Assembly: GCA_028285305.1 (NCBI GenBank)
Contig: JANQPV010000014.1
Location: forward strand, 1 to 64,000
Direction: 5' to 3'
Length of the DNA stretch: 64,000 nucleotides
DNA from: Alphaproteobacteria bacterium
GTDB lineage: Bacteria > Pseudomonadota > Alphaproteobacteria > SMXP01
Shown here: piece by piece, positions 29,711 through 32,447 of the stretch
Position numbering within the stretch: position 1 is the first letter of the stretch
Layout of the letters: each line of letters opens with the position of its first letter
Translations under genes and position numbers: made by a program
Notes under the pieces: generated by a model
Told to the model about the DNA's origin: nothing
What the model saw: the letters and a program-made list of their open reading frames with translations, nothing else
Database searches by the model: none

Positions 29711-29881
29711 GCGGAATTCTCTCGCTTTGTCATTGCTTGCCGCGTTCGGGGAGGAGGCCACTTGATTTACGCCGAGTTGCCCGCTTTCGCAAGCAGCTCG
29801 GTGATTGGACTTCATTCGCGGTTCTCATAAGAAGGCAAAACGTGGTAAATGAAAAGTTAGCTCTTGGGTTGGAGGATCGTG

Positions 29882-30640
29882 ATGCGCACAGTTGGAACTC
29901 TCCTATTTCTTGTGATCGTTGCCGGCGGGATCGGAGCTTTTTGGCTCTACAACAATGTCGACAGCGTTGTGGAAAACATGATCGAACAACGCGGCACGCA
30001 AGTCACCAAAACCAATGTTGCGGTTGACGGGGTTTCGATCAAGCTTGGACAAGGTCAGGCCACCATCGGAGCCTTGGCGGTCGCTAATCCCAAAGGTTTC
30101 TCAAAAGACAATGCCATGGCGATCGATGGCATGAGAGTCGTTTTGGATACGGACCGCACGAACCTGCCGGGGGACATGCTCAATTTAGGCGCGCCGACCG
30201 TTATCTACATGAAGGAACTTACGATCTTACGGCCGGTGGTGAAGTATGAGCTTTCTGGTGGTAGCAGCAACGTGGACCAACTCCGAGCGAATGTTGAACG
30301 CAATGCAAGTTCGGGCAGCGGCGGGGCCTCGACGGGTTCCGGTGAGATGCGGTTTGTCATCGACAAATTGACCATCACCCAAGGTGAAATCGTGTTTCAG
30401 ACCGGCGGCGGAAAGTTGGCATCCTCGGATCTGCCGGCCATTGTGCGGCGGAACATTGGCGCAAATTCAGGCGGGGTCACGGCGGCTCAATTGGGACGGG
30501 AGCTTGTGGGAGAGGTCACGGCCAATGCATTGGCCCAAGTCGTAACGGGAGGCATCCGGGCTTTGTTGGGCGGCGCTGTTGAGGGCGGCGGAACGCTGGG
30601 CGAGGGACTGACCGAAGGGCTTAAGAGCATATTCGACTGA
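29882..30640 (+). CDS. Membrane-anchored AsmA-like protein, hypothetical
   Basis: A 252-residue protein with one N-terminal membrane helix (about residues 5-25) and a presumably periplasmic remainder rich in short beta strands. Segments such as VAVDGVSIKLGQGQATIGALA and MRVVLDTDRTNL resemble the repeating strands of AsmA-like proteins. A Gly/Ser-rich linker at about 136-152 separates the strand region from a C-terminal helix-rich tail with GGIRALLGGAVEGGGTLGEG. The ATG at 29882 has GGAGG seven bases ahead. Function is unknown; AsmA-like relatives act in envelope lipid transport, which is only a lead. Confidence 0.6.
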   Translation: MRTVGTLLFLVIVAGGIGAFWLYNNVDSVVENMIEQRGTQVTKTNVAVDGVSIKLGQGQATIGALAVANPKGFSKDNAMAIDGMRVVLDTDRTNLPGDMLNLGAPTVIYMKELTILRPVVKYELSGGSSNVDQLRANVERNASSGSGGASTGSGEMRFVIDKLTITQGEIVFQTGGGKLASSDLPAIVRRNIGANSGGVTAAQLGRELVGEVTANALAQVVTGGIRALLGGAVEGGGTLGEGLTEGLKSIFD

Positions 30641-30669: not shown

Positions 30670-31014
30670 TCATGCGAGCAGATCGAGGGTCTCTTCTTCA
30701 ATCTCGCTCGCCGTTTTCAGAACGGCGAGAGAGGCCTTGTAGGAGATTTCGGCCAGTTTGCTCCCAACGACTTCCTCGGGCAGATTGACATTGTTTCCCA
30801 GTAGGTCCAGCGGCGCTTGCGGTTGGGTGCCAGTGACTTGGTTGGCGGGCGGCTGATTCACGGTCACAATGGGACCGTTGGGCGTTGCCGTCTGAATTGG
30901 CTCTGCGGCCTGGTAACCTGGCGTGTAGGCGTTCACGATGTTTTGCGATCGGGCCGCAAAACTCGTCCGGGCTGCCTTCAGACCCGCCAATCCGTATGTG
31001 AACGCTGGGATCAT
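30670..31014 (-). CDS. Miniature flagellar rod (FlgC-like) orphan protein
   Basis: A 114-residue protein built like a shortened flagellar rod/hook protein. The N-terminal helix GLAGLKAARTSFAARSQNIVN leads into AYTPGYQ, the counterpart of the ANxxTPGY motif. The C-terminus GNNVNLPEEVVGSKLAEISY then KASLAVLKTASEIEE matches the rod C-terminal domain. FlgB/FlgC are about 130-140 residues, so the variable middle, here proline-rich, is reduced. There is no Sec signal peptide, as expected of proteins exported by the flagellar apparatus. No other rod, hook or export gene is nearby. It is divergent from a FliL-like gene at 31184. Whether it joins a flagellum or another structure is unknown. Confidence 0.75.
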   Translation of the reverse strand: MIPAFTYGLAGLKAARTSFAARSQNIVNAYTPGYQAAEPIQTATPNGPIVTVNQPPANQVTGTQPQAPLDLLGNNVNLPEEVVGSKLAEISYKASLAVLKTASEIEEETLDLLA

Positions 31015-31183
31015 TTCCTCAGCATACCGAATTGCAGGCTTAAGTCAAGAATATTCAATGTTAACAAGGGTTTAGGAACAAGGAAAGCTATCCAAAACCA
31101 TTCAATTTTGAGATATCGAGTGTGTTTGCAAACCGTTTACCTAAAGCACCGTAAATTAGCTCCGTCAGCAATAAAGGGTCTGA

Positions 31184-31618
31184 TTGTTGCCTCTCTTGAG
31201 ACTAGCTTTTGCGTTCACGGTGTTCGTCGCGATCTTATCGTGGGGTGTCCCTCCTGCGGTTGCGGCAGGCGGGGGTAAAGACACAAGCGAGTCCGGCGAT
31301 AGCGATGATGTCATTGCTGTAGCCCCGCTCTCCATTCCCATCATCAAGGATGCGCAGGTGCGCGGCTTTTTGCAGCTCGAGATCGGGTTGATCGCAGGCT
31401 CACCGGAAATGCACCGCTACATCGAGGCGGCTATGCCGCGACTTCGAGATGCCTATATCCGCAACATGAATGTCTTTGCCACCAATCACCTTGTGGTCGA
31501 CCGGGTGCCCGATCTGACGGCGGTCGGCCAGACTCTCCAAGCGATCACCGATCACACTTTGCAGAGTAAAGGCGCAACGGTTCTGTTCGGCCAAATCATG
31601 GTCCAACAAGTCCAGTAG
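31184..31618 (+). CDS. Secreted FliL-like protein
   Basis: A 144-residue exported protein. The start is a TTG at 31184 with AAAGGG five bases upstream; stop codons lie just before it in frame, so no longer form exists. A signal peptide of about 27 residues ends AVAA-GGG, followed by an acidic linker. From residue 45 it resembles the periplasmic domain of FliL: VAPLSIPIIKDAQVRGFLQLE, then MPRLRDAYIRNMNVFA, and the ending KGATVLFGQIMVQ. Genuine FliL keeps an uncleaved membrane helix, here apparently replaced by a cleavable signal. It is divergent from the FlgC-like gene across 169 bases. Confidence 0.65.
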   Translation: MLPLLRLAFAFTVFVAILSWGVPPAVAAGGGKDTSESGDSDDVIAVAPLSIPIIKDAQVRGFLQLEIGLIAGSPEMHRYIEAAMPRLRDAYIRNMNVFATNHLVVDRVPDLTAVGQTLQAITDHTLQSKGATVLFGQIMVQQVQ

Positions 31619-32203
31619 CTAGCCCCGGGTGAGATCTTCCGGACGGACGATGCTGGGACCAATATTCTTCATCACCTCCCGAGCATCATAAGCATCTGGA
31701 TTGTCGCCGGGTTTCGTGCCCGAATAAAGCACGATGTCAGCTGAGGCCGTATAGTTCGTAATCTGCACCGTGTCTGCCGAGGCGAATCGGCGCCGGTGAT
31801 AATAGAACGGACTGCGATGGTAGTAAAAGCCTGGATAATAGCCAAAGGGTCCCCAATCATCGTAGTAGGACCTGTACCGTTTGCGTTCGTCGGTGCTTTG
31901 ATTGACGACCACAAAATAGTCTTGGCCCTTCTCCACCGTTAATTCGGCCGCTCTAAAGAGGACGTAGTTTTCAACGGTGTTCCGTCTCGTGAGCGAATTA
32001 CCGGCAAAGGACACGCGGTACCGGTTGGACTCGATTTGCTCTTCAACAATACCGTACCCCTGGTTGCTGGCCGATTGATAGGGCGTTGCCGTTGCACACG
32101 CCGTGAGACCCAATGCCAAAACCAATAGAGTTCCAAGCTTCTGTAACGGCTGAGCCAAGTGCGCCGCGCAGCTTGCTAATCCTGTTCGGGGACAAATGAT
32201 CAT
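31619..32203 (-). CDS. CC0125/CC1285-family lipoprotein
   Basis: A 194-residue lipoprotein of an alphaproteobacterial family of unknown function. The ATG at 32203 follows AAGGAG by six bases. A hydrophobic stretch leads to the lipobox LTAC with Cys36. The mature part has the family features YRVSFAGNSLTRRNTVENY and VLFRAAELTVEKGQDYFVVV, followed by a Tyr/Arg/His-rich strip (about 125-145) and the closing AREVMKNIGP. Its stop directly abuts the stop of the convergent FliL-like gene at 31618, leaving no room for a terminator. Confidence 0.85.
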   Translation of the reverse strand: MIICPRTGLASCAAHLAQPLQKLGTLLVLALGLTACATATPYQSASNQGYGIVEEQIESNRYRVSFAGNSLTRRNTVENYVLFRAAELTVEKGQDYFVVVNQSTDERKRYRSYYDDWGPFGYYPGFYYHRSPFYYHRRRFASADTVQITNYTASADIVLYSGTKPGDNPDAYDAREVMKNIGPSIVRPEDLTRG

Positions 32204-32447
32204 TGCTTGCTCCTTAATCGCAAGTGTCACGTTCCTTTCCATCCGTACCTATTTACTCATACCGCCATTGGAAGCGCCATTCAATTTCCAGTAATCCCAA
32301 TTTTTTGGCGTCCGGCTGCGTGTTTCACATTGAAATAATTGAAACGAATCGGCCAGTCGGCGAAATCGAGTGGAAATATTGGCTCTTTACCTTCTCCTTA
32401 ACGCGGAGATCACTTTGCACCGGAATTTGAGACAGCAGGAGCCCAGA

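Follow-up and report, generated by a model that had tools for sequence, protein, structure and literature searches.

A gene for a FlgC-fold rod paralogue and a gene for a FliL-like protein with a predicted signal peptide stand divergently side by side in the alphaproteobacterial contig analysed here, and the pair is a real flagellar side-unit that recurs in several alphaproteobacterial families. We read it, tentatively and with somewhat less than even confidence, as an accessory module of the flagellar basal body, one that arose by duplication to a site apart from the main flagellar clusters. The mini-FlgC/FliL-like side-unit is apparently undescribed so far, since literature searches found no paper describing such a pair. 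The locus lies in a window of 64,000 nucleotides (the whole stretch of DNA analysed) and comprises the following features:

29864–30640, plus strand: AsmA-like (DUF748-related) membrane-anchored protein, convergent with mini-FlgC (DUF748, 2.8e-5)
30670–31014, minus strand: mini-FlgC, 114 aa (ORF call, profile match, AF2/Foldseek, tree)
31015–31183, no strand: divergent intergenic region of 169 bases, with one CtrA-like TTAACAAGGGTTTAG at 1 mismatch
31015–31055, minus strand: mini-FlgC promoter-like element, TTGACT (-35), N16, TATGCT (-10), the -10 ending 6 bases before the ATG
31184–31618, plus strand: FliL-like periplasmic protein, 144 aa, TTG start (profile, AF2/Foldseek, sequence inspection)
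31619–32242, minus strand: CC0125/CC1285-family lipoprotein (NCBIfam CC0125/CC1285, 7e-53)

Two paralogues of flagellar proteins

Searched as a single sequence, mini-FlgC gives weak matches that fall under the cut-offs (Pfam Flg_bbr_C, E = 0.099; NCBIfam FlgC, 1.1e-5). Together with its relatives its identification as a FlgC-fold rod paralogue, made by profile and predicted structure, is firm: a profile of the rod-like orphans matches Salmonella FlgC at E = 8.5e-17, and TIGR01395 is matched by 25 of the 27 FlgC-like orphan members. The AF2 model (pLDDT 87) has solved FlgC structures as its top Foldseek matches in the PDB; it places the rod-family terminal helices at residues 3–27 and 78–113 and a beta-hairpin at 38–53, with a shortened middle, and the N- and C-terminal rod motifs pack as a helical D0 domain. 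Rod-type terminal helices are kept in nearly all FlgC-like members. Profile and model thus bear out the original prediction of a 114-residue protein with both FlgC-type terminal motifs. Its description as a miniature FlgC holds in so far as the protein is shorter than FlgC, but the reduction is modest, about 20 residues missing between the beta-hairpin and the C-terminal helix.

The scores against the curated FlgC models (22.6 bits against a cut-off of 102.1 for TIGR01395; 25.9 against 170 for NF009275) point to a paralogue rather than an equivalog. In the tree, the linked mini-FlgCs form one branch (93/89), separate from canonical FlgC and from the longer unlinked FlgC-like orphans. Three of these longer orphans (L006, L008 and L099) have a common neighbourhood of a small secreted protein, a formyltransferase-like gene and a transporter, unrelated to the FliL-like pair. 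Also, a glutamine-amidotransferase-like gene (cluster c13) turns up beside the FlgC-like orphan of two genomes and, in another two, beside a FliL-like gene (L007, L009, L115, L117).

The 144-residue protein gave no match in Pfam and NCBIfam searches when used alone, and it is at the family level and in the predicted structure that its FliL/SPFH fold appears. One NCBIfam FliL model is matched by up to 17 of the 28 FliL-like relatives (best 1.7e-10), and the family profile aligns across the core with that of 12 canonical alphaproteobacterial FliLs (HHalign 97.3%, E = 2e-11). The core of the AF2 model has a pLDDT above 92, and its 11 best Foldseek matches in the PDB are FliL chains, followed by stomatin/SPFH domains. 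The predicted layout is a signal peptide (..PPAVA|A, by inspection), a linker and a FliL/SPFH core at about residues 43–142. Signal peptides, judged by eye from a hydrophobic stretch and an AxA site, appear in the window protein and in most of its relatives, two of which look Tat-like. An uncleaved N-terminal anchor with a short cytoplasmic tail was not found in the FliL-like protein, and the canonical FliL of the host genome retains its membrane anchor. A FliL core with a cleavable signal in place of the membrane anchor had been proposed, and alignment, model and inspection agree with it; structure prediction, which could have placed the protein in another fold, returned the FliL fold. The gene starts with TTG in the window and mostly with ATG in relatives.

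In the tree, the linked FliL-like proteins fall within a larger clade that includes members with no mini-FlgC partner. The wider family also occupies a thiL - FliL-like - MFS - hppA neighbourhood across Alphaproteobacteria (L119, L120, L123, L124, L125), and the second FliL-like protein of the host itself (G000 C39:2556-2966, L124) lies in such a setting.

By our reading of the ORFs, the host carries FlgE-, FlgF/G- and FlgK-type genes, FliF, FlhA and FliL on contig 6, and FlgB, FlgC, FliE and FliP on contig 34. A host without a flagellum is therefore rejected, and because canonical FlgC and FliL are encoded elsewhere in the genome, mini-FlgC and the FliL-like protein are paralogues. The canonical flgB-flgC lies on contig 34, and mini-FlgC stands outside the flgB/fliE flagellar cluster. 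The claim that no other flagellar gene is present consequently stands for the window, where four flagellar family searches gave no match, but not for the genome.

Recurrence of the pair and its relation to flagella

The sample comprised 386 alphaproteobacterial genomes in a single draw from the class, many of them draft or metagenome-assembled, so that absences of FliF, FlhA or mini-FlgC are soft. Linkage was scored within the fetched flanks, and loci further apart would be missed. The ORF coordinates confirm the 169-base divergent arrangement, and the divergent linked pair was found in ten of the 386 genomes (G000, the host of the window, and G004, G219, G124, G117, G369, G222, G373, G301 and G230), which span five families (f1, f120, f113, f123 and f4). 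The FliL-like frame is interrupted by a stop in G301, and the rod gene of G230 is a very divergent 99-aa version (L109). A sorbosone-dehydrogenase-like gene lies between the pair members in G369 and G230, and a membrane-protein gene in G373. Among the 33 genomes with a FlgC-like orphan (threshold E <= 4.2e-18), a strict count of 7 linked gives p ~2e-14 for linkage by chance, and a count of 9 gives ~3e-19. A chance neighbourhood is rejected because ten divergent linked loci occur in several families, and the co-occurrence expected in related genomes by the original prediction was indeed found. In several families the sorbosone-dehydrogenase-like gene recurs as a direct or close neighbour of the FliL-like gene (L090, L106, L109, L115, L018, L019). 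Two-component genes also lie near several FliL-like genes, in a cluster of loose kinase/regulator similarity.

In the window, the pair has FolD, YggT, the AsmA-like protein, the lipoprotein and two-component genes as neighbours; the AsmA-like and lipoprotein assignments proposed earlier agree with the database matches given above. In five of 11 related loci (the window, G001, G219, G124 and G230) the AsmA-like gene joins as a third partner, and the lipoprotein is linked only within the host's own family. In G001, a genome of that family, the AsmA-like, FliL-like and lipoprotein genes are kept, and mini-FlgC is present as two short remnants in different frames (C113, L016:1139-1298, minus strand) with an internal deletion and a frameshift, next to a FliL-like gene that is intact. 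As the genome is a draft, misassembly is possible, but it would need to explain the deletion too.

The rod paralogue goes with flagella. FliF was found in 29 of the 33 FlgC-like orphan hosts compared to 222 of the 386 genomes overall (Fisher p = 1.5e-4); of the four FliF-negative hosts, G222, G373 and G369 have FlhA and G264 has a canonical FlgC match. The FliL-like gene has no significant association of this kind (FliF in 22 of 30 hosts, p = 0.08). Many flagellated genomes (f5, f43) have it and lack mini-FlgC, in f5 within a FolD-YggT-FliL-like synteny from which AsmA and mini-FlgC are absent, and it is kept without detected FliF or FlhA in G231 (99% complete), G351 (94%) and G031 (95%). The FliL-like protein probably has, or could adopt, a flagellum-independent role.

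These distributions lend themselves to another explanation, in which the FliL-like protein serves the envelope in general as a periplasmic protein of the SPFH type, perhaps together with the AsmA-like protein in the homeostasis of membranes or lipids. Mini-FlgC would then be a separate protein dependent on flagellar export, with nothing but the divergent control region in common, and flagellar assembly would thereby be coupled to the state of the envelope. Retention of the FliL-like gene without mini-FlgC or detected flagella, the f5 synteny, the five AsmA-linked loci and the situation in G001, where mini-FlgC has decayed and the FliL-like gene has not, all argue for it. We nevertheless consider it doubtful: if only one of the two were flagellar, it would be an odd coincidence for genes of two flagellar families to adjoin each other in ten genomes from several families, and we are aware of no FliL-family protein for which a role outside the flagellum has been demonstrated, which we count against it.

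The divergent control region

In the linked loci, mini-FlgC is preceded by a TTGAC...TA...T pair whose -10 ends a few bases before the ATG, and the promoter-like element of the window has counterparts at the corresponding position in L086, L088, L089, L090 and L091. The strict form was found in 5 of 10 linked loci and at none of 711 background starts, and the relaxed form in 8 of the 10 loci and at 18 of the 711 starts, although the pattern was drawn up after viewing the tested sequences and its computed significance is thus flattering. The upstream element TAAGTNNTTGATTTNNTNNNNTTTTNTTGAC, in a 31-base version that joins the upstream part to the -35, was found at up to one mismatch only before mini-FlgC in G004, G124, G219 and G369, that is, in three families, and a reversed control gave no match. 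The conserved -10 close to the ATG and the 31-base element together suggest a leaderless mini-FlgC mRNA with a gene-specific upstream site. In the window's family this promoter is housekeeping-like.

The CtrA-like TTAACAAGGGTTTAG is weak, with 0.39 matches expected by chance, and one-mismatch sites in 3 of the 10 regions are insufficient above chance to claim CtrA control. Sigma54 promoters are common for flagellar genes (PMC3930126). Perfect or near-perfect -24/-12 sites lie in the L091 and L090 intergenic regions and upstream of the FlgC-like gene in L007 and L009, those of both f113 loci and of the unlinked orphan L007 being perfect; sigma54 control as a general rule is rejected, as the sites are confined to f113 and L007/L009. 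Both f113 loci also have in common a long inverted repeat between the genes.

A promoter so highly conserved, gene-specific and near-leaderless would also suit a mini-FlgC that is no structural rod part but a substrate of the flagellar export apparatus with a regulatory or checkpoint function, released when the gate opens. The FliL-like protein would then be a co-regulated receptor or scaffold in the periplasm. The shortened middle and the very divergent 99-aa L109 fit such a small secreted factor. This explanation seems improbable given that the rod-type terminal helices, needed for rod packing, are kept in nearly all members, and no regulator partner was found.

A possible accessory module and its known relatives

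The original prediction allowed for either a flagellar accessory or an envelope device in its own right, built from parts of flagellar origin. The association of the rod paralogue with flagella favours the accessory reading, and the envelope device is unsupported for the pair, surviving for the FliL-like protein alone, given the genomes that keep it with no detected flagella. A device built by the pair from flagellar parts and independent of the flagellum would agree with the locus outside the flagellar clusters, the housekeeping-like mini-FlgC promoter and the AsmA-like and lipoprotein neighbours, but it is very unlikely, as none of the 386 genomes has a strong FlgC-like orphan while clearly lacking flagellar genes, and no exporter or ring genes of its own were found in the neighbourhoods of the pair.

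The accessory flagellar module draws on the observed folds, signal-peptide pattern, paralogy, divergent linkage, promoter and association of the rod paralogue with flagella. The perfect sigma54 sites in both f113 loci and upstream of one unlinked orphan also count in its favour. Mini-FlgC would be expressed from a near-leaderless promoter of its own and leave the cell, as other rod subunits do, through the flagellar type III apparatus; it would then join or cap the proximal rod or act beside it in the periplasm. The FliL-like protein would be exported by Sec (by Tat in two relatives) and lose its signal peptide, and its SPFH-type cores may assemble, perhaps together with true FliL, into a membrane-free periplasmic ring or collar close to the rod and the stators that would tune rod or stator assembly. 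Under this mechanism mini-FlgC may contact the FliL-like protein, the pair may be a direct partner of the rod or stator, and a motility role would be conceivable. The position outside the flagellar clusters, the occurrence of the FliL-like gene without mini-FlgC or detected flagella and the housekeeping-like promoter in the window's family speak against the module. A further proposal, possible though not one we would expect to hold, is a hitherto undescribed accessory unit of alphaproteobacterial flagella. In it, an alternative rod subunit exported by type III and a FliL ring protein that is Sec-exported and free of the membrane, both under one divergent control region beside an AsmA-like protein, would form a periplasmic collar linking rod assembly to stator function or to the envelope.

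The flagellar motors of different bacteria vary mainly in their periplasmic accessory parts, most of which came to light through mutant screens or imaging. A rod paralogue whose gene is paired with that of a secreted FliL, at a site apart from the flagellar clusters and in several families, would add a new part to these, and the pair would allow a test of whether rings of the FliL type can work off the membrane or at a distance from the stator. Additionally, a FliL-like protein kept without detected flagella allows the role of FliL/SPFH proteins outside the motor to be asked about.

Among known systems, the nearest studied protein, likened by description, is MotF of Sinorhizobium meliloti and Agrobacterium fabrum, a FliL paralogue with a predicted signal peptide found in flagellated Alphaproteobacteria, whose gene is needed for motility and shares a flagellar cluster with flgJ and flgN (PMC9812332). 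The FliL-like protein resembles it as a FliL-superfamily paralogue with a predicted signal peptide and differs in that the window gene has no flagellar cluster around it and no flgJ/flgN as neighbours; the description of MotF includes no mini-FlgC partner. The FliL-like proteins of the thiL - MFS - hppA setting belong by profile to the same extended family as that of the window; some are membrane-anchored and some have a signal peptide, with no adjoining mini-FlgC. FliL itself (PF03748; Vibrio 6ahq, H. pylori 7sgn, C. jejuni 9hmf) shares the periplasmic SPFH-like fold, and its ring in Vibrio has an inner diameter of about 8 nm, a size fitting the stator (PMC6426602); unlike FliL, the FliL-like protein has a predicted cleavable signal peptide in place of the membrane anchor and is without a cytoplasmic tail. 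Mini-FlgC has the terminal helices, motifs and rod fold of the proximal rod protein FlgC (TIGR01395; Salmonella, PDB 7bin/7cg0). It differs in being about 20 residues shorter, in forming a separate clade, in lying outside the flagellar clusters and in having its own conserved promoter, and it coexists in the same genome with canonical FlgC.
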